Positions 1 through 62,069 of a stretch of 64,000 nt of DNA are shown piece after piece (the first letter of the stretch is position 1; every line of letters starts with the position of its first letter). The stretch is taken from positions 2,852,001 to 2,916,000 of the forward strand of contig OZ017803.1 of the NCBI GenBank assembly GCA_963969395.1, in the 5' to 3' direction. A model generated the notes under the pieces. It did not search any database, had not been told where the DNA came from, and saw only the letters and a program-made list of their open reading frames with translations. The DNA is from Pseudoscleropodium purum (lineage: Eukaryota; Streptophyta; Bryopsida; Hypnales; Brachytheciaceae). The translations under genes were made by a program, and so were the position numbers.

Positions 1-2249
1 TGCATTTTGAGAAATTGCTCCCTACGGCCTTGACCTCTACGTTTTTGAAATGAGCATTCCGAAGGCGGCTGATAGCAAACTGCGAGACCGGCTTCATATT
101 GCATATTCCATTGACCTGAAGAACATGACTGCATGGATGAGTTTCCATGGAAGACTATAGAGTTGTATCGGCTGGCAGCCAACAAAACTGCAAATGACAG
201 CCTATAGAAAGGAAAGATCAATGGCTTCTACATTCAAAGTCCAGACATGATTGTATCGGCTGGCAGCCAATAAAAGGACTTTTCTACTATAGACGAAGAG
301 ACAGATGATGGACTTACATAATTGACTTGTTCGCGCATGTGATCCCAATTCATTGCAGAGGGGAGGACCTTGAGATTGTCGACGCGTTTATTTCCAACCA
401 TTCTGAACTCGTTTGGCATTTTGTCGGCATTGTCGTCGATGATCGTTTTGAGGGTTGCTTGAGCTTGGATTGTTTGTGGCCGTGGCCGTCGGGCCCCCGC
501 ATTTCCATGCGAGCCGTTAATGGATCCTCCCACGGCCGCAGCCTTGTAAACATGATAGGCCGACCTCGATACCCCATGAATGATATACCATGCATTCTCG
601 CAGACGTCTGTATTTGCAAGAGTAATGAATTTTTTTCCTGGAATAACCCCTGCATGAAGTTGACACTGCACCGCATATGCTACCTCCCTCCTACTCTTGA
701 ATGTGCAAGCGAAGAACTTTCGTCGTATAGACCTCGTGTCCTCCCAGGGAAACGTTTGGCAGCATCTGAGCTTACAGCACTTCTGTGAGCTGACCTTACG
801 TACCTCCGTCTCCGAGGTCTTCATTTGCAGCCTGGATTGGCTTTCGTGATCCTTGGGAATCACCCTTCTGCGCACAGAGCGGTATGGATTCCTCGGTACC
901 CCCTGCATTCCGTTATCGTACGACTCATTCAATAGAGCAGCCTTTGAGCAAAGCGTGACAATTTCAGATAGTAGCCTTCCACCCTCCAACCTTGTGTGTG
1001 TGAGCCTCCAGCGCATGGTTGTCATTTGCAGTTTGTCATTGTCCGATACGAACATGACCCCGACATCCGTGTTGCCCAGGACGCCATCATCGCAGGCCTC
1101 ATCTGGTAGGCAGACTTGGATCATGGCTCTTCCGAGAACCGAGAAGTCGTCATTGAGAAGTTCACAGTATTGATTTCTCCAGAGCGGTCTATCTGGGATT
1201 GGAAGCCCAGCTTGCATTCCATCCGGATGGCCATTATCTCCACTTTGAGTATCAGCTCTAAACGCGTTCGAATGCTCCATGCTGTCAGCAACACTTGTGT
1301 TGGAAACGGCAGTGCCAGAGGTACTGTAACCATGAACATCGCGGTGATCCTCTACAGACCCGCGGTTGTCATCGTCGGACGAATAGAGCCTATCATCTCG
1401 CTCGTCTTCATCTGATGCAGTAGGAAGTACTCGTTGTGTTCCCGGATCACATAATTCTACCTGTACATCGTTCGAACTCCCACCACTCTCGTAGTTACCA
1501 TCGACTTGAGCCTGCATGAAATGGGTCGCAGGTTCTCTTGTCGGTTGGCAGCCGACAACCTTGGTTATTGGGACGGAGGTCTCGATTGGTCTGACCTTAT
1601 AACCACTCCAGAGTATTTTGAATCCAACACAGCGTTTGAGTGTCATGAATTCAGGAATCTCGCAATAAGCACTCTGATCCTGGAAATCATCGACGACGTG
1701 CAATAGCTTCACAACGAGGAAAAAGTTGTGTGGAACGCGAAAGCCTTTCCAGTAACCCTTCGGAGAGCATTGTACAATTGTACCTACACCAGCATATAGC
1801 AGATCCGTGCCCACAGTCTGCAGTAGTGAGACATCCATATTGACAGTGAGTGACAGGAATTGTTGTATGGGTTTTTCATCTGTGACCACTTGTATCGGCT
1901 GCCGGTCGACATTAGCAGAAGAAGACCCTTCAGACTCTGCATGGGGTTAGATGCTCTCCGCCTCCCACACGATTGCCCTTCCCGGGCAGTGTCGCAGGAA
2001 CACCATGTCTCCCTCAGGAAACGGAAGAGGCATATCGAGGTTATTTGGAACGTCTAGGACATGAACGCGTACGAGGTAGGGATCACGGCTCACCACCCTT
2101 TCTACGACCGCCCTTCCGGAGTAGTATAATCCTTCCAGTGTAAGAGCCACAACAACTCCCTTCTGCATTTTCAGTCTTCCGGAGCCTCCATTTTTCGTGA
2201 ATGCCTCAATAGGACTTGCACCCGATGTCCAGTCATCAGATCCACTCAT
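1..2249 (-). CDS. Gene A, copy 1: DUF7869-type transposase-like protein, N-terminal part
   Basis: Likely transposase; its C-terminal half runs off the left edge and is seen in copy 2. Proposed exons, all joining in phase 0, are 2249-1971 (ATG at 2247-2249), 1898-1596, 1511-318, and 154 to beyond position 1. Introns at 155-317 and 1512-1595 have clear GT-AG ends. The first (1899-1970) is tentative, because its acceptor would be the CAG inside a palindrome copy; a second possible acceptor at 1880-1881 does not fit the phase. The long exon has an acidic Ser/Asp-rich stretch, then a Cys-rich patch (KCCKLRCC), then an HGVS/HGNAG region and an ADKMPNEFR region, an order typical of proteins upstream of DUF7869. 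No internal stop is present in this copy. Each intron holds the palindrome. The gene is divergent from gene B. Confidence 0.65.
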
Positions 2250-2332
2250 GATTTGAAATCGGAGTCAGAACCCACAATGTCGGAATCTCTGTCAGATCCG
2301 TGATGACCGTATCGGCTGGCAGCCGATATGTT

Positions 2333-2464
2333 TGTGAACCTAGTGCTTCACAACCTTCTTGGTATAGAAATTGGTATCGGCTGGCAGCCGATACGTCTGT
2401 GTACCTGGTGCGTCACGATCTTCCTGGTACAGAAATTGGTATCGGTTGGCAGCCGATACCATTG
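2333..2464. repeat. 66-bp tandem duplication containing the palindrome
   Basis: Units 2333-2398 and 2399-2464 both run from a GTGAACCTAG/GTGTACCTGG start, through CTTCNTGGTA and AGAAATTGG, to a full palindrome. This shows that the palindrome can be multiplied locally by tandem duplication. Confidence 0.85.
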
Positions 2465-3289
2465 TCCATACGGCAAAGCACAGAGGCAGGACTGTACAGC
2501 TAGAACTTTGGGGATAATGCAAGAAGCTAGATTTTGCGCTTCTTATGATCTAGGCACTGTCCACAGATGCTCTGACCAGTAAAAATAATGAAATGGAAAC
2601 ACATGTGCAACCGAATAGGAAATCCTGAACCTTTGTCAGGCAACTAATTTTCGAGAATGCTCCTGACTACTACTGCAATTAGAATCCTATTGCAATTCAA
2701 ATGTAGCTTGGAGCAACTCAAATCCTACTGCAAATCCTACGTAAGCCTAAACGCCAAATAACAACTGTCGAAGAGCGCTTCCTGAACCCGAAGACTACTC
2801 AATGCTGCACTGAACTGAGGTCTACTGAATTCCCTGTCACGTTGCATCCCTCATAAACATTCCACAACAAGCCACTGCAAATCCTTGACGGTTCTTGGAC
2901 GCTCTGAGTGCGTGTGTGGGGCAAATGAAAATGAAAATGGAAGTCCTCTAAGATCTGATCCTAGGTGAGCAAGCTTGAAACTGAATTTGGCGTCTGAAAT
3001 TTGAATCTGGAAGAGGTAGAAGTTGTGGTGATTGCAAGAGAGACAAGTCCGTGCATCGGGAGATCGTGTTGGGAAACGTACGCATCTCTCCAATGAGTGT
3101 TAGTAACTTCCATGTACTTTGTTGGATGTGGAGTACATGCTAATGGATGAAAACCTGCGATGGATGAAATTTATGGAAGAACGGACTCGGTTTGTCATGA
3201 TTGTGCCTACCGGCTGGCAGCCGAGGGTTTAGGAGGTATACACCCTTGGCCACTTTCATTTTCTCTCATTTGCCATTTGCGTCTCCTGC

Positions 3290-3371
3290 TCTCTCTTTGT
3301 CACTCACTCTCACTCACTTTCACTTACTCTCAGCCTCACTCACTCTCACTCTACCATTCTCCCTCCTTCAG
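3290..3371 (+). promoter_or_regulatory. CT-rich tract upstream of gene B
   Basis: Imperfect repeats of CACTCACTCT run for about 75 bp, roughly 170-250 bp upstream of the proposed gene B ATG. Pyrimidine patches of this kind are common in plant core promoters and 5' leaders. The assignment as promoter or leader is inference. Confidence 0.4.
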
Positions 3372-3529
3372 TCTGGCTTGCAGCTGACATCCCCTCGCAA
3401 AGCAAAGCAGCAGCTGATACATCTTAGTGCAGCCGATACTCATTTCAGGCCAGCCGACAGTGAAGGAGAGCGAGGCAAGCGTGTTTTTTCAGCAGCCGAC
3501 AAGTCATCTTCAGCAGTCGATAAGCGACA
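3372..3529 (+). repeat. Cluster of half-palindromes before gene B start
   Basis: Six half-sites of the form CAGCYGAYA lie in about 155 bp, all in the same orientation and without the mirror arm: CAGCTGACA, CAGCTGATA, CAGCCGATA, CAGCCGACA, CAGCCGACA and CAGTCGATA. They end just before the proposed ATG at 3543. They look like directly repeated monomer sites as opposed to inverted sites, which could be read by the same DNA-binding protein. Confidence 0.7.
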
Positions 3530-3542
3530 GAGTCCATTAGCG

Positions 3543-6500
3543 ATGGCGTCCTCCGATTTGGCGACTAAGAGGTACTTTTCACTACATGTATTGGCTGCCA
3601 GCCGATACATTGTCATTTGCTATATCATATAGGATAGCCATTGAGATTCTGAGGCACCTATTACTTGCTCTATTGGCTGGCAGCCGACATACATTGCAGC
3701 ACTCATTAGGAGCCTGAGCTTAATCTTTGTCGGCTGCCAGCCTATATGATCCCGGGACGGTTGACATAGGAATTTCTAGAAATGTCTTCCGACGGTAGGG
3801 TTTAGGGACTGAGAGGTTGTATCGGCTGGCAGCCGATACAGTGGATGCACAAGGTGAAGGTGCATAGTGTGAGTGTACTGAGAATTCAATTGTATTGTTC
3901 TGTAGGAAACTGACTCTCTTGGCCCGCCTTCTGGGACAGCAAATCCCAAACTCTCGGATATTGGGAGACGGGTTTCCATCGAGGGCAACATGGCGAGCGA
4001 TCGAGGCCATCCAAGAATGGGGTCTGTGTTGGAGGCAGTTACCCGACACGACAGTGGAGATCGTATGCTCCTTCAAGCTGAAAGGGAACATGACCCCTGG
4101 CAAAGGAAGTGTATTGTCCGTCATGGCTGTTGGCGATTCTGTCCACGTCATGATATGCTTGATGCCACTGGGAAGCACAGATGGAGTTGCCGATTATTTC
4201 GCGGTGGAGTTGCCGGTGAACAAGTGCACGGAGGAGGTTTGTGGACAAAAGTCAATGTCGATGGGCATGACGTTCGCGGAAAACACGCCGTCCAGTACAG
4301 AGGAGCTCATCCAGGGCTGGGAGTGCTTGAAGATAGAGCGCGATGAACACAATGCGTTCATCGCTTGTGAGTTGGAAAAGGGGAAGAAAAAGGTACCCTC
4401 GGCGAGGATGCAAGTGGCAGCGAGAGTGACTGAAGACGCTGCAACTGATCTGCAGAAGACCGGGTTGCCCAGCAAACCGAAGAGAAAAGCGAAGGCCAGG
4501 GACGACCCCAACAAGCCGCTAAAGCTGACACTCGACGAGGCACTCCGACGTGGAAATCATCTCACAACCAAGACGAAGGAGAACGAGGTGAACGCTATTT
4601 ACCACGCGTTGGAAACAGGGCTCCTGCACGCGTTTCCTTACAAGAAGCAGCGTCTTCTGGGGGTCATTCACTCGGACAAATTCCACATTGCACCGAACGA
4701 GTTGAAGTACCAGAAGATTGCAAAGGACCGACTTGGCCAGGTAATTTGACGATCACTTACATCCTTTACTGGTTTTTATCTTCCCATATAATGTATTGGC
4801 TGGCAGCCGACATCTGTAGCTGGTCTTTAATATTTTGGCCTTCTCTCAATTCAGGTGAAGACCATGTACAAGGGATACGGGTCCATCAGGAAGAAGCCGA
4901 AAATCCATGGGATTCCTCTGAAGCGGGCTCCACTGCCAACGGACAAAGGGCTAGATGTCGTGATGGACGAGTGTCCCAGGAAGGAACAGACTGTTGTTGT
5001 CGACGGCATCTCAATGCCGTGGTGGAAGGCGCCAAATGTCCACTGGTATATCATTGGTGGGCAACACACAGTGACGGCTTGTCGAGAATTGGCCGAGCAA
5101 TATCCGGACGGCTCTGAAGCCAAAACCGACCTCTTGGAGTTCGAGGTCATTCCGGTATTCAGTAGAGACCCGGACACACTCGTTAGAGTCTCCAATGCCC
5201 TCAATCTCAACATCGCGGAGAAAGTGGCAAAGGAGACCTTCAGATCCTGCGCAGAGATGGGAAGAGCGGCGTGGGTGCAGGCGGGGTGCCCAGAGCCGCA
5301 TCGTGGAGGTGGAAAGCCGTCAGCAGCATTTGAGGTAATTCCCACGCACCTTTATTTTTTTCTCCCTTTTGATTAATATATTATGTATCGGCTGCCAGCC
5401 GATACCATTCTCGCATGTTCTAAACATTGCGGTGGAACTCCTCCAGGCTGCGAAGCTGAAGGTGATGGCGCACTTCGTGGATGAGAAGGTGTCCTCCAAG
5501 TTGCCCCTCATCTTCATCAAGGAGACCACCTGGGTGCTATGGACGGAGGTCTTCGATGCGTGGGAGAATGGGGAGCTTATTGGAGATGATGGGACTGTGC
5601 CGAATCTCCTCGTCAATCGGAAGCCGCTCACTCACATCACCAAAACGGATCTCACACCAACGCTGGGGCTTCGGGATTCGGATCTGTGCGAGCTAGGGCG
5701 GGAGATCGTTGCACTTTGCGTGAGCATCAAGAACATCGCGAAGGCCAAGTCCTCGGGGAAGATCACTCTCTTCGACTGGTGCAAGGACAAAAAGCTGGAC
5801 AGGATCGTCATGAACGAGATCATGTGGACCAGGAAGAAGCATCCCCTTCCCTGCAAGGACCAGGTCTGGACCCCATATATTGATGAGGATTAGATGGAGC
5901 TTGCTGAAAAGGACGGGTACTCGGCGGCCGTAGTCCGAAACGTCTGGAAGGACATGATGAAGTTCACGGACACCAACAATTGGTTGAAGGGGCGAGTGAA
6001 CCCTATGAATCCAACAACGGACAAGTCGAAGGATGGCAAGGCGCCGGGGGTCTTCTTCACGACGTTGGCGAACTACGCCAAAGTCAAATTGCCTCCGACG
6101 CGTGGGAAATCCGCCGACCTGAAATACGAATGCTATGTCGGAGAGAGTATTCCTGAGGTGGTTTACTTCGTCCGTCAATCGAAGGGGAATATGGCGCTGG
6201 AACCCGAGGACAAAAAATTCATTGTCCTCTTTGGGTATACAGATATGGGGGAACCGGTTCCAGTAAACAAGAACGATCTGCTCGATCTAGCACTGGCCGC
6301 TGAAATCCCTGCGTTGGACGGCCCGAATATCAGAGAGACCGAAGCGTACATCCCCCTGCCAATGCTCCTGATCGGGAACACGCGTTTCCGAGATTCTGTC
6401 GCGACGGCCTCGTACTCGTCCTCCTGGTACTACCATTCGGTGTACTATCAACCATCTCCCCGTGGAGGCTTTCAGAAGGCGGAGATTGAATCCATGCCTT

Positions 6501-7151
6501 TGGTCACTCTGTTCTTGACCTTCCCGGAGCCCGAGGACAGGTCCAGTATTTTCCCGGTCTTCAAGCGCTTCACTGGGATCAACAAGGCGCCCGACTGGTT
6601 CAATGTCGACGTTGAGGGCGAGGTCGACTGGAATGGCGGGATGTGCGGGGTTGGTCATGGACTTCTAGAGAAACTGATGATGCCGACCCTAAAATCCAAG
6701 GATGCCATCGTCATCAACATTTGGGGGGGCGGGAACATCACCAAGATCGCTCTGGTAAGTCTTCTTATCCCTTCCTCACATTTGCATTGTTCAGAGGAAG
6801 TGAAATCCTGTCGGCTGGCAGCTGATACAACATGTTACTCACTTGTACTCCATGGGTTCGTAGAGGAATGGGCGGGCCGTCATGGAGTTCGTTCGGGAGG
6901 AGGACGGATTGCAGAAGGCCATGGAACGTGTGAGGGGAATGAACCTCGTCTCCTCGGCTTCCTTGGGACCTTCTTCCGGGACGCCTGCGCTGACAGACCG
7001 GGGGGGCGCAAGCGGATCGGAGCAAGTGTCGCCTGCGGCATCACAACAGCGGCCGATCTCGACCCTCAATCTGACGGAGACTCCCGGTGGCGCGGAGACG
7101 GCCGCAGGGTCAGTCTCAGGAGCGACCAGAAATTCAGATGTTTCTGATTGA
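3543..7151 (+). CDS. Gene B: ParB-like protein with methyltransferase-like C-terminus (one in-frame TAG)
   Basis: Proposed exons are 3543-3571, 3906-4740, 4855-5334, 5447-6754 and 6864-7151, all GT-AG and phase-compatible, about 979 codons. The ATGGCGTCC start context is typical of plants; exon 1 is the least certain part. Residues near 350-425 contain WYIIGGQHTVTA followed by a helical NLNIAEKVAKETF segment, resembling the GxxH core of ParB/sulfiredoxin-fold domains. Residues about 860-900 (DAIVINIWGGGN, then RNGRAVMEFVREED across the last splice) resemble the C-terminal S-adenosylmethionine motif of permuted N6/N4 DNA methyltransferases, with the usual GSGT degenerated. Bacterial and phage proteins can pair these two domains. 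One in-frame TAG at 5891-5893 (codon 597) interrupts an otherwise open frame. Introns 2-4 each hold one palindrome 33-42 bp before the acceptor, and intron 1 holds four. Domain calls are from motif reading only. Confidence 0.6.
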
Positions 7152-7616
7152 CTCAGACAGTGATGACACCCGGAAGAGACACTCATTCGAAGGCAACAGC
7201 AACGAAGTCCTTCATCTCCGCGGCGTTCTCTCAATCTTCCCCCGGCTTCAAATTCGGAGACGCTCGGGATGCTCCGACCGGAAAATTCATCGGTCGCAAT
7301 GGTCATGGACTTGCACGTTCAGCCACCGTCAGAGGAGATTCGCAGGATTCCACAGGCTCCAGTGGTCAATCCTGCGACAGAGCCTCAAGTGGGAGTCACT
7401 GCAATTGGCCGCCCGGCTACTGCAGCTGACATTAGTATCAGCTGCCAACCGACACCCATGGTGGTTTCCCCGCTTGAACCACGACGGGGAAGAAGCAAGT
7501 CGGCCACGCTCGAAAAGGAGTCGGAGTCGGCGGATTCGCGGAGGTCAACTCGGGTTCAACAAAAGCGGAAACGACCGAGTGACGAGGAAGACGGTGGCAC
7601 GGTGGCGCGGGAGTAG
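7152..7616 (+). pseudogene. Frame-broken C-terminal tail following gene B
   Basis: Right after the gene B stop, an Asp/Ser-rich stretch (DSDSDDTRKRH) is readable one frame over. From about 7230 to the TAG at 7614-7616 a low-complexity tail rich in Arg, Lys, Ser and Glu (including RGRSKSATLEKE and QQKRKRPSDEEDGG) is open in the original gene B frame. This suggests that the real C-terminus was longer and is now interrupted by stops and small indels. Alternatively the tail is joined by an unrecognised intron. A degenerate palindrome at 7434-7453 lies in this segment, the only site that would fall in coding sequence. Confidence 0.4.
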
Positions 7617-7910
7617 GACTTCCCAAATGAAGCGATGTCTCCCGCTCGATCTCAGAGGCGGGCTCAGACTGGAGGTTCGTAGGCGATAGACATGCTCCGC
7701 GATGTTTGTGGAGTATCTAAAATAGCTCATGTATACGTAGCACTACCTGGCTCAGACTTGTGCGTAGACTTGTCAGTAGGAGCCTTCATCTCGGCAGACT
7801 AGAGTACTTATGGACTGTGTCGGCTGCCAGCCGATACGGTGCACGAATGTTTTGTTATGTACCTAGGTTCATTGCTTCTCATGCTCTATGTATTTCGTTT
7901 TGCAATGCAG
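7617..7910 (+). other. Spacer or intron upstream of gene C
   Basis: There is no confident coding sequence. The segment contains one palindrome (7818-7838) and ends in a good splice acceptor (TTTTGCAATGCAG at 7898-7910). I infer that an upstream exon of gene C should lie here or before, but I could not place it. Confidence 0.4.
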
Positions 7911-8755
7911 ATGATGACTCCACAACTTCTGAGAAATTCCCCGCCACCGCGTCTGAAGGTTGGCAGGAGTGTGACAAACTAGCTCTAGAAAAAAGGGCAG
8001 GGAAATCGTCTAGTGCTGGCCCGTCTCAGGGAGCGACTCCGAAGTTGTTTCTTTTCCTTGAGGTTCAATGAACTCTGCTCTTCTATGAGCCTCTCATTTT
8101 AAAAGGGAAAAGTATGCATCAGAGGTCGCAAGTAAGACCTCGACCAGGTCTTCAGGAGTTCATCAGGTTCTGTAAGGGTCGGGACATTCAGATCGTTTAT
8201 TGGTCGCATTTACCCAAGAAGACTCTTGAGCAGCGTCTTCATAACCTGAAATATATGGTGCCGGATATCAGAGACGATTACCTGGCTTTTGGACAGGAGG
8301 ACTGTGACGAGAGTGCTTATCGAGACCCTCAGAATCCCACACGACCAATTTTTCTGAAGCATCTCGCAAGGATTCTCGCTTCATCCTCCTTGTACGATAA
8401 TGGGACCACGATCAACAACTCATTGATCGTGGATCACGAGCCCTATCGGAACGTTTTGAATCAGCCATATAGTGCGATTCATCCACCCGCGGTTACTATG
8501 TATTCGGAGGGTTCGCTGAAGGGTGGAAAACTGCCTTTTCTCCAGGCGAAGCTCATCCCGTTCATTGAACGGTTTTTGTCTTCGGGACTTATGGTCCCAG
8601 AGTTCTGTCTAAAGAACTCTTCACTTGGGAGTGCACGTTGTATGCCAGGCTCTCTTCTTCATAATCAGTTCGTGAATGTGACACCGCCATATCAAAAGGG
8701 ATTCGAGGTGCCATATTCACTGGAGGAGCTGCAGGCCATGGGAGTTCCCAAATGA
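7911..8755 (+). pseudogene. Gene C: FCP1/NIF-like HAD phosphatase fold, decayed
   Basis: The visible exon follows an acceptor at 7910 and reads about 281 codons to TGA at 8753-8755. An in-frame TGA at 8069-8071 falls exactly where the HAD motif I (DxDGTL in active enzymes) belongs: the residues before it read LFLFLEVQ and those after it TLLFYEP. The following RPGLQEFIRFC and DIQIVYWSH segments match the RPGLxEFLxFC and VxxWSS parts of FCP1/NIF domains. The nucleotides suggest two small compensating changes inside motif I. The nucleophilic Asp is absent, so even with readthrough catalysis is unlikely. The gene is paired with gene D, a second diverged member of the same fold. Confidence 0.55.
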
Positions 8756-9232
8756 AGCGGGTCCTAATGGTGGAGGCGTAGTATATCGGCTGCCAGCCGA
8801 CACATATTTCTGTAGATTGTATATATTCTCTGTAGATAAAGGAGGACATCTAAAGACTACATCTTTTGTGTACATTATTTTCTTTTGTATTGATTAAACA
8901 ATTTTCTTGTAATGAAGGCATATCAGTCCGATTTTTCCTAAAACTTGCGCATGGGACACTCACTCTCAAAGCATTCAAATGTTTCCTTTGAGAGTTTCAG
9001 CATTAGGTCTTGGTCATTCTAATCAAGTGATCGCAATAATGTAGGTGCAGGCATTCACTCATCTATGCACAATCTATCTGGCACCTTTTGTTTGTTTCTC
9101 AATATGAATTATTGGTTGCTGTCGTGTGTCAGGCCAGAGTATCGGCTACCAGTCGATATCAACTGGCTTGTCTTCTTTCAGTGGATGTTGATGTTGTATA
9201 ATCTTGTAGCTACTAACTCATGTTCTGTTCAG
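8756..9232 (+). other. Spacer between genes C and D, with palindromes and possible gene D first exon
   Basis: Palindromes lie at 8782-8803 and 9139-9160. A short ATG-started reading frame at about 8981-9028 ends at a possible donor (CAA before GTGATC) in phase with the gene D exon at 9233, giving a candidate 16-residue first exon. This is weak. The acceptor at 9231-9232 (TGTTCTGTTCAG) is good. Confidence 0.35.
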
Positions 9233-9883
9233 GAGTCCAACGTGGGCCATCCACAGTCGTTCAAGAAATGTGTGGTTCTATGCGTCACGGGACTACTTTG
9301 TTATCTCGACCCGAATATCGAGGTGGACAAGTCGGACCCGCACAAAAATGTCATTAAAAGGCCAAGGCTAGTTGCAATGTTCATGACACTGTTTGAAAAG
9401 TTCCACGTAGGAATTTGGTCCAGGATGCCAATAGTTGATCTTAGGCCTCTGCTTGCGCACTTGCTTCCAAAACATGTCAAAGACAACCTAGCGTTCGTTT
9501 ATGGCAGAGAGTACTGTGTAGATAGCCAGAATTTCCCGTGGTGCTACAAAATGCTCTCAATACTTCACACTAAGAGACCATCCAAGATGACATGCTTCAC
9601 GGACGAAGTGCTCATGGTCGATGTGTGCCCGCTTTCGCTCAGGAGGACGCCGGATCCGGCGTGCTATATTCCGCTACCATTTACGGGGGATCTCAATTTT
9701 CCGAATATTAGTAGAGTTATTCCGAACATTTCAACGGATATTATTCCATTCATTTATCCCATGCACGAGCATGAGTCAGTCTCGGAATACATGAAAGGCG
9801 CAATCAGACCGGGACAATTACACTATGAGGTTGCACAGTCAATCAAGTACGGGAAGCCAAACTGGAATGGGATATTCTGGTGA
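9233..9883 (+). CDS. Gene D: FCP1/NIF-like HAD fold protein, motif I lost
   Basis: The visible exon gives 216 residues ending at TGA 9881-9883. KKCVVLCVTGLLC at residues 11-23 aligns with the HAD motif I region (hhhLDxxGxL), but the nucleophile Asp is replaced by Cys. It is followed by IKRPRLVAMF and FHVGIWSRM (residues 41-65), the RPxL and VGxWS signatures of the FCP1/NIF family. The C-terminal third is unrecognised. No frameshift or stop is present, so it could be expressed as a pseudophosphatase. It lies about 480 bp downstream of gene C on the same strand, as a diverged tandem relative. The upstream intron holds a palindrome about 75 bp before the acceptor. Confidence 0.55.
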   Translation, partial: ESNVGHPQSFKKCVVLCVTGLLCYLDPNIEVDKSDPHKNVIKRPRLVAMFMTLFEKFHVGIWSRMPIVDLRPLLAHLLPKHVKDNLAFVYGREYCVDSQNFPWCYKMLSILHTKRPSKMTCFTDEVLMVDVCPLSLRRTPDPACYIPLPFTGDLNFPNISRVIPNISTDIIPFIYPMHEHESVSEYMKGAIRPGQLHYEVAQSIKYGKPNWNGIFW

Positions 9884-10494
9884 TTTGCCCTACATGGTGT
9901 CGGCCGCCAGCCGATACCCTTGCAGAGTGGAATCAGGGGGGGGCTTCAATACCTTCCAATCTTGTCCCCTTTACCTTATTCACAAATTTGAACTACTTTA
10001 TTGTCAACGCCAATCTTATCGAATCGACTGCCTCTTCACTTCAAGACCTGTTCTCTGGAGCTTTTTGGGGAGGATATCGGCTGCCAGCTGATACGAGCAA
10101 TTCAGTTCATTGGATCGGATGGACTTAGGGTTTAGGGTTTAAGGAGGAGCATTCGTTGCTCTTCATCTTACAGATGGCTGCCATAGTCGATTTTCATACT
10201 TTACGTAGTGCAAACACTTTCATAGATCTAGGTGCTTTAGAGAATGATGTTAGAAATCGGTTGGCAGTATCAGGCGCCAGCCGATACTTTGTTCCAAATT
10301 TGGACACAACATAGGAGCTTATGAAATTATTCATTTAACTACTAATTGGATGCTCTGAACTCAATAACTTGCCGTGTGTTGTGGTACTTTGGTTTGTTTA
10401 GTGGTTGTGTCCATTTCTGTTTATTGCTTATGACACACAAATCTATGCATTCGACTATATCGGCTGACGGTCGATATATTTCTGGACTATGGAT
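9884..10494. other. Right subterminal region of the large transposon
   Basis: Non-coding. It carries palindromes at 9898, 10074, about 10266 and 10457, the last two degenerate, plus a short plant-telomere-like TTAGGGTTTAGGGTTT at about 10,127-10,142. No gene recognised. Confidence 0.6.
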
Positions 10495-10516
10495 TTGTCC
10501 ATAATTAGTTAAATAT
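10495..10516 (-). repeat. Terminal inverted repeat, right end of left copy
   Basis: The reverse complement of this 22-mer (starting ATATTTAACTAA, ending ATGGACAA) is identical to 57,892-57,913. Similarity continues inward: ATCCATAGTCC here against ATTCATAGTCC in the other end. The palindrome array stops immediately inside it. Confidence 0.8.
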
Positions 10517-10635
10517 CAGTTATTTGTCTATCAAATTGCATGTCGAGAGATGAAAGAGGAGTGAGATCAAAAAAGTGACATACAAGTTGGTTGACTTTGT
10601 AACCACTTATGCAATTTTGGCTTCCAATACCTAAT

Positions 10636-10870
10636 TAGACTTCTCAAGCAATTTTCAGACCTTCCTTGGGCAACTACAAGGCCTCGACCAATTTTAGACC
10701 TCTCTTAGGGCAATTTCAGGCATGTATGGAGCAGTTTTGGACCTCTCTTCGGCAATTTCAAACCTTCAGGGGGTAGTTTTAGACCTCTCTTTGGCAATTT
10801 CAGACCTTTTTGGGGGTAGTTTTGGACCTCTTCTAGAATAATTTCAGAACTCTCTAGGCAATTTTAGAAT
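10636..10870. repeat. Degenerate minisatellite
   Basis: Repeated units of the form CAATTTCAGACCT, a GGGGTAG- or TTGGGC-type spacer, then TTTTGGACCTCTCTT recur about seven times with an irregular 25-45 bp period. Non-coding. Confidence 0.7.
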
Positions 10871-10989
10871 AAAAATTAAAATAAAATAAAATCCAAGTCA
10901 GGCCCCTGTGGGGTATGCTCTTAATGGGGATTTTTGTCTGTATGGGTGCTAATCAAGCCAATGCCCAATCAAGGTACCTACGAGCTTGG

Positions 10990-13200
10990 GTTTTGACCTC
11001 CCTTCCAATCGATTGGCTGCTGGCCCTCTAGCTGGTCACTCGGGCTTCAAAACTGGTTCTAATAATTTGGCGGTTATTACCAATTTAATTCCAAATTTTG
11101 AAATTAATATCCACCCTCTTGGGTTTCCTTTTGGGGACCCTTTTAATACTAAAACAACACGGAAAATTGTTGTATCCAAGGGCAAAGCTTCGCCATATGG
11201 GGTGATTCTACCTCTACATTGACAAGCAAAATTTCCACTTAGTAAAGAAATGTTAGAAGGAGGACGATAGCTCCACTGTTCAAGGATTTATGCTAGATTT
11301 TTGGAACAAAACACAAAGGAGGTTGGTTATGAGGGCCTTAGGAAACCTTGAATCCACTCTAATTTTTCCCACAACCTCAATGGACCATGTATCTTGCTTG
11401 TCAAGACTCTAGGGGGATTTTTGACATATGAGGTAAAATTCTACACAAGGAGCTCGGAACAAAACACTGACACAAAAATCAACCAACACCCAAACTTAAT
11501 CACGAACTCACAAGGGATTTTCAACAAAAGATGTGAGATCCCACTCAATAAGCTTGGCATGTGGTTGGTACAATGAATAGCAAGAAAGAACATGATGCAA
11601 ATGGATTTTTTAACACTATATATGATGCCGATTCTCCAAAGGACCCTCACATCCTTTGAATAGGCTCAAAACACAAAGTAAGCAAGCAAACAAGGAGCAA
11701 GACTCCCAAATAGCATTCAAATACAAGAATTGGACAAGATGGCCTCAATTCTAAAACGAGGCTGCGACTTGGCCAAATACAAGCAAAGGCCTTGGACAAC
11801 CTAATAGAAATGCAAACAAGTAAAAGAAAGGGGTACAAAGGGAGTTGGTGGGGGCCCTTTTATACATTTCCAAGGGCCTCCACTTCCTCCTTTTACTCTA
11901 AAAACTAAGTAAATAAAAAACTACTAATACTAATTTTTACTATACCTAATTCTATCCTACTATTGATTGTCCTATATCTTTTGAAGGAAAAGTTCAAATG
12001 ACAAATGGTCTGTGCCGTTGGCTTCAAAAGATCCAAATTACTCCTTGAATCTAGGCCCCTAGCTTTCTAGTCCAAACTCCTTACAAAAAACAACATTTTT
12101 CATCTTAGTGGAAAAGGTGAAAAATCAAGTTTTGGAGTTTGTCATTTTTGCTAATTTTGATTGTCTAGGGTTGTCCGAAAGTTTCAAGAATGTAAAAAAA
12201 GAGTCCAAGATGACTCAATTTAGCCTTTGTATGCTTGTAGTTTGATGGTCAATTTGTAGAATGTCATGAAATTTTGTTAAAATCCGTTGGCACTGTTGGT
12301 TTGGGTAGTTATCGTTGTCGAAATGTCACAAAATTTAATTAGGTGCTTATTTAGCCTTAAACACACTAAATTGATTTTTAGTGGGATTTTAGCATTACCA
12401 GATGAATTTCCATGAATTTTTCTATTCTACGTAATAATGGTTGACTTCCCATGGAGTCATATTTTGTAATTTGGAAAATTACAAAACTTTTTTAGCAAAG
12501 TTTCAAAATCCTCTGTGCAAAGTTTTCAATTTTTAGAAGAAGAATAAATTTATTTATTTTTATTTTTATTCCTCCAAAGAAGAATCATTCCCATATAAGA
12601 GAATCTTGGCGGTTTGGCTTCACCATTACGCTCCTAGCATGTTTTTGTATTAAAAATACCTCCCTTCTCTTAGCAACCGTCTACATATAGTATTCATGGA
12701 TTTCATGTGCAAAGTGATAGCGGATTTTCAACTTTCGCAATTGAAATGCGATTTTCACCTATTTTTTTGCTACAAACTTCTGTGACACTAGGGGAGTTAG
12801 ATTGATCCTAACCTTGTTAAATTTAGCCAATATTGCCACATGCACTTTGACTGGCAAAATCCTACATGAAGTCCAAACTAAATGTTTTTACTACATTTTG
12901 CCGAGAATTGGAATCTACTCTCAATTCTTTAATTGACACTCAAACACCTATAAACACTCTTAAACTAACAAAAGGAAGTACTTATAGCACTTTCAAGGTC
13001 TTTGGAACATTCACCCATAAGAGTAGGGTTTTCTTCTAATTCTTCTTTAAATCTACTTTTTTGATCTTTTTGACCATAATTACCTATAAAAATGAGAAAA
13101 AATAAAAAATAAAAAAAATTCAGAGATCCAAGTGACATTCATGGGGCTCACATTGGAGGGAATAATGGTAGTCCGCTCTTTCTTTTGGAAATGCAAAACA
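10990..13200. repeat. Diverged 2-kb repeat, left member
   Basis: Several blocks match 50.0-51.95 kb in the same order and orientation. Examples are CAAAGCTTCGC about 11,182 vs 50,178, the TTTTTAGT-to-CCATGAATTTT block about 12,374-12,420 vs 51,180-51,225, TGGTTGACT about 12,437 vs 51,247, and CCAAGTGACA about 13,128 vs 51,910. No protein domain is recognised; the short reading frame at 10,986-11,222 is not diagnostic. It is probably an old LTR or non-autonomous retroelement. Confidence 0.5.
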
Positions 13201-18431: not shown

Positions 18432-21300
18432 ATGCTCCTCATCCGCTCCGATCTTTGGAGCGTGGTTGATGGATCTGAAGTCGCTCTTGCTGCAAGCGAT
18501 CTTGTCGGATTGACTGCTTGGAAATCAAAAGATTCCAAAGCACGATCCAATATACTTCTCCATTGTGGAGATAAGCAGTTAACTTTGCTAAAATCCCTCA
18601 CTACCTCAAAAGCAGTTTGGGACAAACTAAAGCAATTATATGAACGCTCTAATACAGCTTCCCAAGTTAGTTTATACAAACAACTCTGTCATTTAACAAT
18701 GTCAAATAATGAAGACGTTGTTAGTTTCCTTGAAAATTGGCAATCCATTTTGCACGATGCAGCCACGGCAGGTTGTACATTTACCGATGCCCAACAAATT
18801 ATGCTGCTACTTTCGGCATTACCAGACTCATGGAGTTCTTTTATCACAATATAGGGAGGAATTGCCAACCTCACTTTCTCGGAACTTCTCTCAAATATTC
18901 TCCAGCAACATGCAATCAATAGCTCTAAAAGTGAACCTTCTAAGAACTCTACCTTCTATGTTAAAGGCAAATTCGTAAAATCTGAAATGACGCCAAAACG
19001 ATTTAATAAACCGAGTACATCAGCGAATAAAACTTCTCAGCAACCCAAACGAGATATTCCTTCTTCGACAACCATTATCTGCCATTATTGTGGCATACTG
19101 GGCCACAAGGTCCCTGACTGTCGAAAGAAAAAGCGCGATATGAGAAATTCCAAGTCACATGTCAACACCTTTACATTTGAGGACACTGTATATATGTTTA
19201 CAGCTACATATTCATCATCCACAATATCCAATGAATGGTACTTAGACTCCGGCGCAAGTCAGCACATGTCACCACTTCAACATTTATTTCGTGACTATAA
19301 AGAACTACCTACTTTAAAAACTATCTTGCTTGGTGATAACAGTACATATAATGCCCTTGGAATTGGATCTGTACTCATCAAACTTCATACAGGACAATCC
19401 TTACTTATTAATGACATACTCTATGTACCCGGACTTACTAAAAATCTTTTATTTGTAGCTCAAATAACAAGTATTGGTCACACGGTTATAACTTTCTGAC
19501 GTGACCATTGTCTTATTAAAACAACCTCTCCAATTTCTCATCAAACTATGGCCTTTCGAGTTCATAAAGACGGAAATCTTTTTCCCTTGGGAATTGGTCA
19601 AGATTCATCTATTCAAAATTTTTCTGCCACCACACAAACTGAACGAGACACCTTTAAATGGCATTTACGCCTTGGACATCTAAATTTAAGATCCTTGAAT
19701 AAAATGCAAGCTCCAGACCTTGCTAAAGGATTACCACCACTACAAACATCTCAATTGTTCTGCCTGGGTTGTACCTTTGGCAAACACCACAGGGAACCAT
19801 ACCCTCGTACTCCAACCACTAGGGCTACAGAATCTCTTGCTCTTATTCATACAAACCTATGTGGTCCTATGAAGACCCCCTCTCACGGCGGTGCTTTGTA
19901 CTTCCTACTCATTATTGACGATTACTGTCGATACACTCATGTTTACTTCTTACAAAAGAAGTCAGATGTTTTCCAACACTTTACTCAATATAAGAGTTTA
20001 GTTGAAAACCATACAGGAAAGAAAATACTCATTCTCCGTTCTGACAACGGGGGCGAGTTTGTTTCCAAACATTTCAATCAATTTTGTGCAGATAATGGCA
20101 TACAATGCCAACTCACAAACCCCTATAATCCTGCACAAAATGGCGTCTCTAAACGCAAAAATCGTACTCTTGTGGAATCCGCTCGAAGTATGTTATATAC
20201 AGCTAAATTACCCAATATCTATTGGGCTGAAGCAATCTTTACAGCCTGTTATCTGCAAAATTGCTCCTATCATACATCTTTGGAAAATATCACCCCATTT
20301 GAGTTATGGACGGGAAGCAAACCCAATCTTAGCCATCTTTGTACTTTCGGTTGTCCGGCCTACTCTCACAAGCCTACTGAGATACGAAGCAAACTCGATA
20401 CTAAAACTACACCATGCATCTTTGTGGGCTATGGTATACCCTTGGGCATTAAAGGTTACCGTTTATATAATCCTCATACGCGGAAAATTTTCTACAGCCG
20501 TGATGTTATTTTTTACGAAGACCCATTACTTCTAACTGGAGCTTCTTCTGCTCCTGATCAAGTTTCTATCCCAGCTCAATCTGCACCCTACTATTTTGCA
20601 AGTGGTAAATCCACACCAACCCTTCCAGTGGTTAATCCACTCCCGATACCCCAACCTACTCTGAATTTATCCCCTCCAAAAAGCAGACCTCACAGTCCAC
20701 CTCTCCCATCCCAAAGTGACCTCCGTCAGGACAACTCACTTATTTTTAAACCCCAGTTACGCACTCATTGTCACTCTCCTACGACTCCAATCCGTGCTTC
20801 TCAACGCCAACACAAAGGACAGTGGTGGTCTACAAAATTCCATGATGAAGCTTCCTTTGCATGCGCCTTTTTTACACAAATTGCAGATCCCAGCTCAGTC
20901 TCTGAAGCCCTTTCTAGCCCAGAGGCCTCCCAGTGGCGTCAAGCCATGGAAACCGAGTACAGTTCTTTATTGAAGAACAATACTTGGATTTTGGTTGATC
21001 GACCAATTGATCGATCTATTGTCAGCACTAAGTGGTTGTTTCGGCGTAAATACAACTTTGACGGCACTTTGGCACGTTATAAAGCACGTTTTGTTGCTCG
21101 TGGATTCTCGTAGCAAGTAAGCCTCGATTATTCAGAAACTTTTTCACCTGTCATAAAGATTACCTCCTTACGTACTTTACTCTCTCTAGCTGCACTTTAT
21201 GGATATTATGTCCATCAAATGGACGTTACGACCGCATTCTTCAATGGTCTTCTTCGGGAAGAAATCTACATTACACAACCTGAAGGTTTTGTGCTCTCAG
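18432..21300 (+). pseudogene. Copia gag-pol polyprotein, broken by stops
   Basis: One reading frame holds the gag region (a typical SLTTSKAVWDKLKQLY helix), a CCHC zinc knuckle (CHYCGILGHKVPDC, about 19,080), an aspartic protease (WYLDSGASQHM, about 19,236), the integrase HHCC start and core (DDYCRYTHV near 19,920, then DNGGEF and an NGVSKRKNRT variant of the usual NGVxERxNRT), and early reverse transcriptase (KWLFRRKYNFDG, ARFVARGFS, ETFSPV, QMDVTTAFFNG). In-frame stops are TAG at 18,852, TGA at 19,498 and TAG at 21,111. The last replaces the conserved Gln after GFS. Frame is otherwise kept. A separate small open frame at 18,029-18,274 upstream is unassigned. Confidence 0.85.
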
Positions 21301-56598: not shown

Positions 56599-56740
56599 CA
56601 CTACTAGAAAATTCAATTTTTCTGTTGTTTTGGTCGTGTTGATCCAAGTCAATTTTCTATTGATTTTTGTCAAAATCAACAAAAAACTAACTTGGATCAA
56701 CGTGACCAAAACAATAGAAAAATTGAATTTTCTAGTAGTG
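56599..56740. mobile_element. CACTA-type hairpin MITE (142 bp)
   Basis: It begins CACTACTAGAAAATTC and ends GAATTTTCTAGTAGTG. The two 69-bp arms are about 88% identical. CACTA ends are the mark of the CMC/EnSpm superfamily. Only GA on both sides is a possible target duplication. Confidence 0.8.
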
Positions 56741-57484
56741 GAATTTTTTAGTTAAGATCAGTCCAAAACAAAAGTGTAATAATAAGTCTAGCGCAAAAAT
56801 GGAAGTTCACCTTAGTCATACTTGTGGTAACATTCCTTGCATTTTTTCATTGATTGTGGTGATTTTCAATGGGTGCCATATTGTTTTGGCGAACTTGCTT
56901 GCTATTCCAAATGGAAAAGATTCTTTAAGTATGTGCTAGTCAAGAATGAGTCCACAACATAGGTTCGAATACCTTAGACAAAGTGATTAAACGTCAAGGT
57001 GACATTGAATTGGTAGACTACAAGCAGAATCCAACTTCTTGAAGCTTAATGATTTTAGTATAAGTAAGATTGGTATAAGTAAGAACATATTGGAGATCTT
57101 GAGTTGGATAAGAATATGGAGAATTTTAGGTTCCATGACGTACATATCATGCAATTTGATTTGTGCAAAACCAAAAATTGACTTAGTTAGAATAGTTGTG
57201 TCTTTATTCTTACGCTTCCATCCTTTACAAATAGGGGCAACAATAGATTTTTCATGCCTAACAATCAATATCTTGCATTTGGCATGTATGCACTTTTGAA
57301 TGGTTTGATATTGTTTCCTTAACTTGTGTAAAATTCTCACTATGTGTCATTCCTATATATTGCAATTTGTTTCCACCACATATCAAACTGTATGGGGCAT
57401 GGCCGTATTAAACTCCTCAAATGTACAATCCGGAGTTGCACTTTAGCAATGAACAATTTACTTTGAACCCAAGAATGAGAGAAG
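56741..57484. other. No gene recognised
   Basis: Overlapping open frames on both strands at 57.0-57.3 kb are of similar length and show no domain. Confidence 0.3.
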
Positions 57485-57563
57485 TTAACCCCTAAAGGAC
57501 CATAAGGCCACTACATGGCTTCTACAATACTTTTTTTTGCACCCTCGGTCCATTAGGAGTTAA
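57485..57563. mobile_element. Small TTAA-ended foldback (79 bp)
   Basis: TTAACCCCTAAAGGACC (57,485-57,501) faces GGTCCATTAGGAGTTAA (57,547-57,563). The ends resemble those of the piggyBac-like MITE family and of the element at 40.4-41.1 kb. Confidence 0.55.
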
Positions 57564-57891
57564 CCTTCTTGGGGTAGTAAGAATCACCTTCAAAATTGAT
57601 TAGAAGATCCAAGTTCTTTTTGTTGAACCTAAATACTTCTTCCATCTCTAAATGTAGAATTTGAGTGTAGATGTCTTCTATTCCAAGCATCTCACTAAGG
57701 GCATTTGCAATTTTCTTTTCATCTCTACATACCATAATTCTCTTCAATTTCAAACTCTTTTTAAGAGGACCTTTTTAGAAGGATCCTCACAAAGTTAAGC
57801 CATATAGTTGGTCATGTGCATGAAGGCTCAAATCTAGTCATCACATGTGGCAACTAATATATTAAATCTACAGTTCTTGAAAGTTTAACCT

Positions 57892-57913
57892 ATATTTAAC
57901 TAATTATGGACAA
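57892..57913 (+). repeat. Terminal inverted repeat, left end of right copy
   Basis: Identical to the reverse complement of 10,495-10,516 over 22 bp. A second AATTATGGACAA at 57,920-57,931 indicates a 19-bp local duplication before the inner ATTCATAGTCC block. Confidence 0.8.
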
Positions 57914-58613
57914 TTGCACAAATTATGGACAAATTCATAGTCCATAGCCACATTAAAAAAGGTAGAGAACATGCTTCAAATGATTAAAAAGTGTCGGCAG
58001 CCCACCCACACCTTGTTCAGAAGAACCGAGGGTACAAAAAAAAAGTGGATTGTTGTATTTTGGACCGGTTTCTATGCAATAGCAGAACCGGTGCCTATGA
58101 CCGTGCACCCATCCCGTGCCCATTGACATATAGGCTGGCAGCCGATAAGACAGCACAGTAAAGTGTGCAAAACCAAAAAGCAGGACAACGAACATGAAAG
58201 ATAGAGAAATGAGCAAATCGCATGTGCACTGAAGATAAAACAGTTGTAACATGGTTCCCATAGGAGATTCAAATAAATGTGATTTGTCAGCAGCCAACGG
58301 ATACATATTAAAAATGTCAAAACTGACTAGTCATAAGACTTATAGTCACAACCTATAAGATATGAAGGTACACCCTAAAAGATATGAAGGCACATTCACA
58401 AATGAGTAAATATTGTGGATATGCATGTAATCATCCTGAAGTGAAAACATCCTGTTCAAGAACCATGCAATCGACATGTAGCGAAGCCCTTAGTATTGGC
58501 TGGCAGCCGACACCTGCAGCGAGGACTCGGATCTGTCTAGCAATGTGATGGTGACACAACTCCAGAGCTAAACTATTGTATCGGCTGGCAGCCGATAGGT
58601 CCGAGGCGATATG

Positions 58614-61600
58614 TCAGTAATCCTCTTCGCCCTCGTCTGCATCTTTGTCCAAAGCTGCCCCCGCGGCCTCCAGATTCGCAATAACAGCAGCAACGAATGC
58701 CTCCGGGATGACATGAGATGTGGGAGGTCCTTTCTTTGCGTGCGGGGGCATTCTGTGCGAATACAAGACAATGTTGACATGGACCATCTGCAGAAGACAG
58801 AGTTCCTTGTGCCATCTTCGAGTCCAGCACTCCCTCGCAATGAGCGCTTTTGACTTCCTCTTGGCTTTCATTAGAGTCCACCACTCAATTTTAAAATTAC
58901 CATGCGTGGGCCCCGGAGACATGTCCACACATTGGAGTACCCGTCCCAGCCAAACAGGCAGATGATTGTTGTGACATGGTCGACAAAGAACAAAGTCTCC
59001 GAGCAGAACATCCCTGAATGGATTGAATCTCAAGCGCGGCCTGTCCTTCGCAAGTCCGCAGTATGGAGTGGGATCCCCTTCGTCCTCCGGAGTGGTGTCT
59101 ACTGAATAATTTTCCTCTGCCCCCTTGTCTACAAAAGTCGACGTGTGATCTCTTGTCTAGTCAGAGAGCGACCATAATCCTTCTTGAAGCAATGCAGGAG
59201 TTTGAGGCAGCGCCGAATTGATCTCCGATTGAATTCTTTCCCAGTAAGCCACACAGCCTGCCATTTCCTGTGCGTACCGTCTATCTCTGGCCATTCCCGA
59301 TTTCCAGAACTCAATGAACTTTGCTATTCCGTTTTTGATGAATGTCTGTTTCTCATTGCACTCTGTAGCCCTTGCGACTTCCTTTTCTGCATTTCGCCTT
59401 CTGGTATTAATGTCCACATTCCCCTAGAGTGCCTTGAAAGGCACAGGTCGAGGGTCCCCCTGTGGAATATTGGGTTGTCCATTTTCGTCCGCTGTCCACA
59501 TTTTGACAGGTGCGCTAGGAGGTAGCCACGAAGAATCTGTGGCCCTGAGCTTGTACCTCATGACCGGCCATCCACGATCCACACCATCCTCCACGACGTA
59601 AAACTTGAAGAGGTGTTTATCTCCGAGCCCGATGATTTTATTCACCCCATCATGATGGAAGCCCTTGAAGTATGATTTGAAGTCCGCCACTTCTTGCACG
59701 AACTCCGGAATGAAGGCTACAGTCTTCTGTGAATCCATGAACGCCTTCATGAGATCCGCAAGTACGTATGTGTTCTTCCTTTTGATCAGTTTCGAGAGAT
59801 AACTGAAGTGCGCATCAATGTCCTCGTGCGTATGCCCGACAATAAGGAACCCCACTGAAACTTCCTTGAATATGCGCCTGGCAGTGAGCAGTGAGCAGAA
59901 AGCCATGAGGAATCTATTTTTGTTGTCCTTTGCTGAATTGTCGAGTTGCAAGAACAGTTTCCTCGGAAGTGGGACTTGAGGTCGTCTTGGTCTCGCTGCG
60001 TCGATCACCATGTCCGAGGCCTGCGGAATTGACGAGTTGCATCTCGATTTCCCATGAAGCAGAGCCTCGAAGAAGGTGTTTAGCGGTGGAGTCGAGAAGA
60101 GGATCTTGGACTCCCGAACAGGTGGTAGTTCTAGGGCCCTGAGGACCCTACAGATGGACGAAATTGTGAAATTTGAATCCCCAAGCCAGAGTGATGTGGA
60201 GTAATGTGCATACGCGCCATCTCCATGTCCATGTGTGAGCATTCCAGTACACGAGATTGGTATTTGCCCTAGCCCTGCGGTGGCCTTGGTGATGTGCTGC
60301 ATCCTCGGAATGGCAGTCTTTGTGGTGTCTATTTTGTCATGAATAATGCAGAGGAACTCTGATGGATTTTGCACCGACTACGCGGTCCATCCACTGTATA
60401 CATTTCTACAAGCGCGCTGGTAATTGAGATGTCTCTCTCTGTCGTCGACCAGGGCCTGCCACTCATCACAACCTCTTGGATACTTTGCAATGAACTCTAT
60501 CAGGAAGTCACATTCTGTGCATTTTGAGAAATTGCTCCCTACGGCCTTGACCTCTACGTTTTTGAAATGAGCATTCCGAAGGCGGCTGATAGCAAACTGC
60601 GAGACCGGCTTCATATTGCATATTCCATTGACCTGAAGAACATGACTGCATGGATGAGTTTCCATGGAAGACTATAGAGTTGTATCGGCTGGCAGCCGAC
60701 AGAACTGCAAATGACGGCCTATAGAAAGGAAAGATCAATAGCTTCTACATTCAAAGTCCAGACATGATTGTATCGGCTGGCAGCCGATAAAAGGACTTTT
60801 CTACTGTAGACGAAGAGGCAGATGATGGACTTACATAATTGACTTGTTTGCGCATGTGATTCCAATTCATTGCAGAGGGGAGGACCTTGAGATTGTCGAC
60901 GCGTTTATTTCCAACCATTCTGAACTCGTTTGGCATTTTGTCGGCATTGTCGTCGATGATCGTTTTGAGGGTTGCTTGAGCTTGGATTGTTTGTGGCCGT
61001 GGCCGTCGGGCCCCCGCATTTCCATGCGAGCCGTTAATGGATCCTCCCACGGCCGCAGCCTTGTAAACATGATAGGCCGACCTCGATACCCCATGAATGA
61101 TATACCATGCATTCTCGCAGACGTCTGTATTTGCAAGAGTAATGAATTTTTTTCTTGGAATAACCCCTGCATGAAGTTGACTCTGCACCGCATACGCTAC
61201 CTCCCTCCTACTCTTGAATGTGCAAGCGAAGAACTTTCGTCGTATAGACCTCGTGTCCTCCCAAGGAAACGTCTGGCAGCATCTGAGCTTACAGCATTTC
61301 TATGAGCTGACCTTACGTACCTCCGTCTCCGAGGTCTTCATTTGCAGCCTGGATTGGCTTTCGTGATCCTTGGGAATCACCCTTCTGTGCACAGAGCGGT
61401 ATGGATTCCTCGGTACCCCCTACATTCCGTTATCGTCCGACTCATTCAATAGAGCAGCCTTTGAGCAAAGCGTGACAATTTCAGATAGTAGCCTTCCACC
61501 CTCCAACCTTGTGTGTGTGAGCCTCCAGCGCATGGTTGTCATTTGCAGTTTGTCATTGTCCGATACGAACATGACCCCGACATCCGTGTTGCCCAGGATG

Positions 61601-62028
61601 CCATCATCGCAGGCCTCATCTGGTAGGCAGACTTGGATTATGGCTCTTCCGAGAACCGAGAAGTCGTCATTGAGAAGTTCACAGTATTGATTTCTCCAGA
61701 GCGGTCTATCTGGGATTGGAAGCCCAGCTTGCATTCCATCCGGATGGCCATTATCTCCACTTTGAGTATCAGCTCTAAACGCGTTCGAATGCTCCATGCT
61801 GTCAGCAACACTTGTGTTGGAAACGGCAGTGCCAGAGGTACTGTAACCATGAACATCGCGGTGATCCTCTACAGACCCGCGGTTGTCATCGTCGGACGAA
61901 TAGAGCCTATCATCTCGCTCGTCTTCATCTGATGCAGTAGGAAGTACTCGTTGTGTTCCCGGATCACATAATTCTACCTGTACATCGTTCGAACTCCCAC
62001 CACTCTCGTAGTTACCATCAACTTGAGC
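58614..62028 (-). pseudogene. Gene A, copy 2: DUF7869-type transposase-like, five in-frame TAGs
   Basis: Exons are 62,028-60,835 and 60,671-58,614 (TGA at 58,614-58,616), joined across a 163-bp intron with two palindromes. The second exon holds KCTECDF, a Cys-containing lead-in, then the DUF7869 region: IHDKIDTTKTAIPR, LFLQLDNSAKDNKN and VGHTHEDIDAHFSYLSK. These Asp/Glu positions fit an RNase H-fold DDE-like catalytic core. The full product, with copy 1 exons, would be about 1,277 residues. In-frame TAGs lie at 61,420-61,422, 61,300-61,302, 60,378-60,380, 59,424-59,426 and 59,157-59,159; there is no TAA, TGA or frameshift before the terminal stop. Copy 1 has CAG at the first two positions. 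Upstream exons are cut off by the LTR element. Confidence 0.85.
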
Positions 62029-62069
62029 CTGCATGAAATGGGTCGCAGGTTCTCTTGTCGGTTGGCAGC
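60518..62069. repeat. Direct repeat of positions 1-1552
   Basis: Aligned without gaps at a constant offset of 60,517. I count about 22 differences, 20 of them transitions. This is the overlap between the two transposon copies. Confidence 0.95.

Follow-up and report, generated by a model that had tools for sequence, protein, structure and literature searches.

In a 64,000-nucleotide stretch of the genome of the moss Pseudoscleropodium purum (GenBank assembly GCA_963969395.1, contig OZ017803.1, positions 2,852,001 to 2,916,000; C47:2852001-2916000 in our numbering, hereafter the window) we found two copies of a 13-kb unit, supported as a DNA transposon with inverted ends, which encodes a DUF7869 protein (gene A) and three further proteins (genes B, C and D) and carries a 19-bp palindrome along its whole length. 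Judging by their sequences, three families in this genome each carry their own palindrome of this odd-numbered form. Our joint best explanation, to which we assign a probability of about 0.6, is that the window family is a large DNA transposon of autonomous type and that the palindrome is a family-specific binding site by which the element would be recognized as self, most likely against silencing, or which would aid transposase assembly.

An earlier sequence-only reading had proposed an element of about 13 kb by overlaying two segments that share a 1,552-bp overlap and a 22-bp terminal repeat. The overlap proved real (window 1-1552 versus 60518-62069, 98.6% identical), and the repeat (ATATTTAACTAATTATGGACAA) is exact at both visible ends, at 57892-57913 on the forward strand and at 10495-10516 on the reverse strand, with a chance expectation of 0. 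The true termini lie 5 bases further out, with AACCT on the left and AACTG on the right. After 10 kb of sequence before the window and 20 kb after it had been fetched, both ends of copy 1 were located, which gave a length of 13,152 bp and 27-bp inverted ends, AACCTATATTTAACTAATTATGGACAA on the left and, reversed, AACTGATATTTAACTAATTATGGACAA on the right (also written as AACCTATATTTAAC and AACTGATATTTAAC), the outermost sequence being AACCT...CAGTT. Copy 1 starts 2,631 bases before the window with the left terminus AACCTG at C47:2849370, and the rest of it fills window 1-10521 up to its right terminus at 10495-10521 (reverse strand). Copy 2 begins with the left terminus at 57887-57913 (forward strand); its left part extends to 62069, and it runs past the window end, bearing three nested insertions, until it reaches its right end.

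Searching the genome (313 Mb in 52 contigs) with the left end gave 131 first-look candidates, of which 40 were scored and were all 97-100% identical; a search with an internal stretch gave 133 candidates, and the 40 of these that were scored were again 97-100% identical. The family has dozens of highly similar, dispersed copies. The left terminus was present with at most 3 edits in all 30 loci cut from the left-end search and was preceded by different DNA in each case, and the right end was found at the position predicted from the length in 6 of the 10 loci examined. All six copies in which both ends were read are flanked by 4-bp target duplications (CAAG, ATAT, CTAA, TCTA, ATAT and TTGT), with the fifth base differing. 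The expectation that the genes travel together was borne out in the copies read: copy 2 as a whole and six fetched copies over approximately element positions 2,100-12,000 keep all gene blocks, insertions aside. The pair in the window is a poor example of its family, since the flanks of copy 1 (AGAA and ATTT) form no matching target duplication and copy 2 has a right terminus without CAGTT. Ectopic recombination between copies would, we infer, explain the flanks of copy 1. The 47 kb that the two copies had been said to bracket are incidental and do not form a unit with them.

The palindrome of the window family, which had gone unnoticed in the sequence-only reading, consists of 9-bp arms around one centre base, with the founder form TRTCGGCTG-S-CAGCCGAYA. 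Copy 1 holds 26 sites (up to 4 mismatches), about one per 500 bp and spread across the whole element. Allowing up to 3 mismatches, the window holds 28 sites where 0 are expected, all of them within the two copies and none in the intervening 47 kb. In the majority sequence of eight copies (copies 1 and 2 and the six fetched ones; for seven of the 26 sites the majority comes from copies 1 and 2 only) the 14 core positions are free of mismatches in 19 sites, with one mismatch in four sites, two in two and three in one. The palindromes appear to lie chiefly in noncoding DNA, although a few sites may be coding. Three of the 26 site midpoints fall within homology-covered blocks, which cover only parts of genes A and B, and two of these three are in our reading introns spanned by gapped or read-through alignments. 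If at most one site is coding, the binomial chance is 7.6e-7 with the coding share set by us at 6,400 of 13,153. All four introns, as placed from homology blocks and open frames, contain at least one palindrome.

Genome-wide, 487 exact sites were counted and the reversed-pattern control gave 0. The 50 sites listed form 14 clusters on contig C1, two of them single sites. A listed DUF7869 match is found no more than 20 kb from three of these 14 clusters, with only 150 of 885 DUF7869 candidates scored, and six are tied to a known copy when the listed element copies are added.

A second family (family X, L062:3122-6022 and L063) has a DUF7869 gene in an open frame of 967 amino acids without introns; this frame length was observed in 7 of the 150 listed DUF7869 loci. 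Its palindrome is again an odd 19-bp form, TYAGCGCGA-S-TCGCGCTGA, and each of two copies has seven sites (up to 4 mismatches) in the part that they share. The 15-base core occurs exactly 255 times in the genome (control 0). The 50 listed sites, on C1 and C40, form 11 clusters, 10 of which have a listed DUF7869 match no more than 20 kb away. The shared part ends on the reverse strand in AACGTCATATTCAA, a form that resembles the termini of the window family. Family X may have been active more recently than the window family.

A third family (family Z, L062:6545-10000) lies beside family X in L062 and encodes a ParB-like frame related to gene B (33% identity over 63 residues, E 1.4e-9; profile E 5.7e-7; both in searches of two sequences only). 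Its palindrome, TATCCTTGA-N-TCAATGATA, has nine sites. Tandem repeats of approximately 120 bp hold it, and seven sites lie in tandem repeats or close to them. The other two belong to a duplication of 81 bp with 80% identity, which lies between the ParB-like frame and the frame that follows, a place where the window family also has a site. The genome contains 113 exact occurrences (control 0). The 100 sites listed form 28 clusters, and 22 of these have a listed DUF7869 match at no more than 40 kb, where 1.2 would be expected. One of these 22 clusters is beside a family X gene. The other 21 are at distances of 8-34 kb; if they are physically linked to the DUF7869 genes, the elements would have to be very large. 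Family Z might therefore possibly consist of transposons of 30 kb or more.

A further connection leads from the palindrome to gene B. Some gene B homologs seem to read past a splice site into the intron, so that the palindrome is legible as protein letters. Among 25 gene B homologs, four (P0122, P0138, P0141 and P0146) contained exact core peptides, with 8 hits in total against an expectation of 0.11 and a maximum of 2 over 500 shuffles, in a test that was devised after such tails had been noticed. In 120 gene A homologs the same peptides occurred once, as often as chance would give. At the 38-69% identity of the four homologs to the query, one would otherwise hardly recognize intron sequence. 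Two of the three hits in P0146 are in a long tail and are possibly coding. Since relatives of gene B are in this way tied to the palindrome, gene B is the first candidate for its reader.

Transposons must act on themselves and not on their host. The gene A transposase would cut and join the 27-bp inverted ends and thereby leave the 4-bp target duplications. The palindrome is predicted to bind a dimeric protein encoded by the element, a dimer-binding protein being the simplest reader of a dyad sequence. Bound along the whole element, such a protein could let the element be recognized as self, which would most likely counter host silencing, as VANC does on VANDAL, or would help to assemble the transposase. 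A palindrome of its own in each related family, as seen in three families by sequence, would keep the families separate. If this holds, these moss elements would be a clean natural example of a coevolving protein and address, like VANC and VANDAL but of different make and in an unrelated transposon.

The excerpted report on VANDAL and VANC of Arabidopsis (PMC5735166) describes a 9-bp motif (YAGTATTAY) in one orientation, for which VANC binding and loss of methylation were demonstrated, and VANC targets that lie in introns and spacers, are clustered in elements and have family-specific sequence. Within the reach of that excerpt the two systems share a short, family-specific motif that is enriched in noncoding DNA and introns and stands partly in tandem repeats. 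They differ in that the moss motif is a 19-bp palindrome, known from sequence alone, and not a 9-bp motif of one orientation. The transposases are also unrelated, that of VANDAL being Mutator-like. As spread, clustering and family specificity match the reported VANC targets, we rank a role in anti-silencing or self-marking first and a role as transposition accessory second. We would extend this only tentatively to the proposal that in this plant lineage every family of a whole superfamily of giant DUF7869 transposons carries its own 19-bp odd palindrome, distributed over a length of 13 to 30 kb or more. Its reader would be a coevolving element protein, with the ParB-like/pseudo-methylase gene B as candidate, that coats and marks only its own family and so protects it from silencing; this wider form seems doubtful to us.

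Among the other explanations, the palindromes might be internal binding sites of the transposase that serve synapsis and have no part in silencing, which we consider rather unlikely. The TnpA sites of En/Spm are comparable internal transposase sites, the palindromes adjoin both ends of the element, and each of the three palindromes has genes of this one transposase family in its neighbourhood. However, they are distributed over the whole 13 kb including the introns and are not restricted to the ends.

It is less probable still that the palindromes work at the RNA level, forming hairpins in introns or untranslated regions, for instance in splicing, export or termination. Sites do occur in all four of the proposed introns and between the genes, and copy 1 alone gave an orientation bias with respect to transcription (Fisher p 0.005). 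This bias was not upheld on eight copies, in which orientation follows position, with G at the centre of 16 of 18 sites at 243-9440 and C in all seven sites at 10067-12899. The variable pair 2/18 reads A/C seven times and G/C once, so that pairing covariation is lacking. Because this common variable position changes independently in the two arms, recognition of half-sites is suggested and not a hairpin. A search of Rfam with window 1-10600 gave nothing at E 0.1, and sites also lie outside genes, near both ends.

Assignment of the element to Lanisha or another CMCT (CACTA-like) lineage appears very improbable. The describers of Lanisha reportedly work on a moss genome, which we list as a point for this assignment. 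In the excerpted description of PMC12730594 the CMCT transposons (EnSpm/CACTA, Plavaka and Lanisha) have C(2)C and H(3-4)H between the second D and E, mostly 5'-CA..TG-3' termini and target duplications of 2-5 bp. The moss element agrees with this description in its DDE transposase and in target duplications of 4 bp, but C(2)C or H(3-4)H was found between the second D and E in none of 36 homologs, and the termini are AAC...GTT. Because the signature is missing and the termini differ, we do not file the element under Lanisha or EnSpm, Lanisha having been compared by this description only. That the palindrome is a tiny mobile or self-duplicating sequence collecting in elements by chance deserves hardly any credence: some sites are in short tandem repeats (window 2309-2438 and the arrays of family Z), but the palindrome is confined to the element in the window and to element-size clusters among the listed genome sites, comparing the window with itself revealed no repeat in the flanks of the other sites, and the sequence differs for each family. 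A viral origin was rejected as well, as no relative of gene A or B and no palindrome was found in viral contigs, a set from which records near this genome may be left out.

The transposase-like nature proposed for gene A was supported by a match to DUF7869 (PF25273, E 3.5e-41) in Pfam and by the predicted structure of the gene A homolog P0003 (with the VIA rows), which has a DDE transposase/RNase-H fold and whose nearest folds include retroviral integrases. The putative catalytic residues are D82, D214 and E253, with the spacing DD(39)E, and gene A is modelled as a DD(39)E RNase-H transposase whose catalysis is suggested by the fold and the conserved residues. A sequence search against solved structures with genes A and B gave no match at E up to 1, and Foldseek returned nothing at E <= 0.001. 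Of the 120 gene A relatives listed, the liverwort Riccia sorocarpa is the sole organism named. In the moss genome 885 first-look candidates for DUF7869 were obtained, of which the 150 scored gave 181 matches, whereas 14 control genomes had none; DUF7869 has been amplified here to a huge extent. The element described here gives a specific role to this domain of unknown function, namely that of a transposase which acts on defined ends and leaves target duplications of 4 bp.

Two other groups of transposons invite comparison, each as far as the excerpted sources describe them. IS481EU has 4-bp target duplications as one of several lengths (PMC10045372), and Ginger1/IS481EU resembles the moss element in this length and in the retroviral integrases among the nearest folds of the model; unlike these, the moss element has several genes on 13 kb, and Pfam found DUF7869 and no integrase core family on the scanned open reading frames. 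Kyakuja-Dileera-Zisupton (KDZ) elements have 7- or 8-bp target duplications and can carry the accessory genes TET/JBP (PMC12730594). They are likewise DNA transposons able to carry accessory genes, but the moss duplications are 4 bp long and no KDZ match was obtained among the scanned open reading frames. In the open literature (subscription papers and Repbase lay outside the search) we found no description of DUF7869, of moss transposons with palindromes or of new superfamilies that would fit.

The main exon of gene A with the DUF7869 domain is seen in copy 2 at 58617-60644 on the reverse strand (homology block at element 734-2758) and contains an in-frame stop at 59424-59426. The upstream exon, which encodes the N-terminal part, lies in copy 1 at 270-1946 on the reverse strand, with homology support for element 2901-3839. 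The intron between them (128-269 in copy 1, reverse strand) contains palindromes at 166-184 and 254-272, the latter overlapping the intron edge, and in copy 2 the same intron holds two, at 60683 and 60771 (60683-60789). Further palindromes were found in the open frame of the upstream exon at 1539-1557, a part without homology cover and perhaps a short intron, and near the start of this frame at 1893-1911. They are followed by three with 65-bp spacing (2310, 2375 and 2440; 2310-2458) and by five between the divergent genes A and B (3208, 3589, 3671, 3728 and 3820; 3208-3838). At the ends of the element there are four palindromes beside the right end of copy 1 (9898, 10075, 10268 and 10458; 9898-10476) and three beside the left end of copy 2 (58129, 58494 and 58579; 58129-58597).

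Homology and open frames place the three exons of gene B on the forward strand at 3868-4746, 4840-5370 and 5438-6760, with palindromes in intron 1 (4794-4812), intron 2 (5386-5404) and intron 3 (6809-6827) and two more downstream of exon 3 (7436 and 7818; 7436-7836), the first of which may be coding. Exon 3 contains an in-frame TAG at 5891-5893 with an ATG directly after it, common to copies 1 and 2, which is either a stop fixed in the source copy or the border of two separate genes. In exon 2 the stretch WYIIGGQHTVTA, which includes GGQHT, is taken by us, by eye, to resemble a ParB motif, and VINIWGGGNITKIAL likewise to resemble motif I of DNA methyltransferases. Gene B had no significant match in Pfam or PHROGs, its structure prediction (predicted local distance difference test score, pLDDT, of 41) gave no usable fold, and the assignment as ParB/methyltransferase is unproven. 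Homologs are few: the first part has 15 and the second 10. A longest contig of the same length, 204,689 bases, is given for the gene A homolog P0029 and for the gene B homolog P0136, which suggests linkage of the two genes elsewhere.

Both of the proposed FCP1/NIF-like genes match NIF weakly in Pfam: gene D (9065-9883, forward strand) scored 23.2 bits against the cut-off of 21.8, and gene C (7969-8752, forward strand) fell short of it with 15.2 bits. A palindrome follows gene C at 8784-8802 and another is in the open frame of gene D before the NIF match (9140-9158). The catalytic motif of NIF/FCP1 phosphatases is DxDxT. The Pfam matches of both genes begin downstream of its expected place, where gene C, aligned by eye, reads LEVQGT in 5 of 8 copies and FEVQGT, LEV*GT and LEVQ*T once each, and gene D reads VLCVTGLL (copy 1, by eye). 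Because LEVQGT and CVTGLL stand in place of DxDxT, both genes may encode inactive enzymes.

The six fetched copies are 94-96% identical to copy 1 over approximately element 2,100-12,000, which is below the identity at the left end. Over the first 2.2 kb, 29 of 30 copies deviate from the majority by 0.8-2.6%; the alignment of the remaining copy, L011 (34%), is faulty, probably at an insertion, which makes the difference totals too high. With L011 included, C-to-T and G-to-A changes account for 1,146 of 1,843 differences, at per-site rates of 6.0% in CG, 6.3% in CHG and 1.9% in CHH. These three contexts are those in which plant DNA is methylated. Singletons make up 914 of 1,213 variants. Judging from the type of mutation, the pattern fits a recent burst that was followed by methylation and decay.

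The overlap of the two copies ends at 62069 because the first of the three nested insertions of copy 2, each of approximately 3.3 kb, sits there (TGTCGC...GCGACA; 62070-64000 and beyond the window). The third ends in GCAACA, and a clear 5-bp repeat is seen in two of the three. One insertion was translated and showed a 554-residue, long coiled-coil, gag-like frame and, by eye, no polymerase. These insertions (window 62070-64000, L040-L041) look like a non-autonomous element of the long terminal repeat type. The idea that they target the palindrome was dropped, as only one of the three falls in one. Between the two copies, window 18987-21113 contains Copia-type gag and integrase frames (by eye) and window 31930-36212 fragments of a lectin receptor-like kinase.

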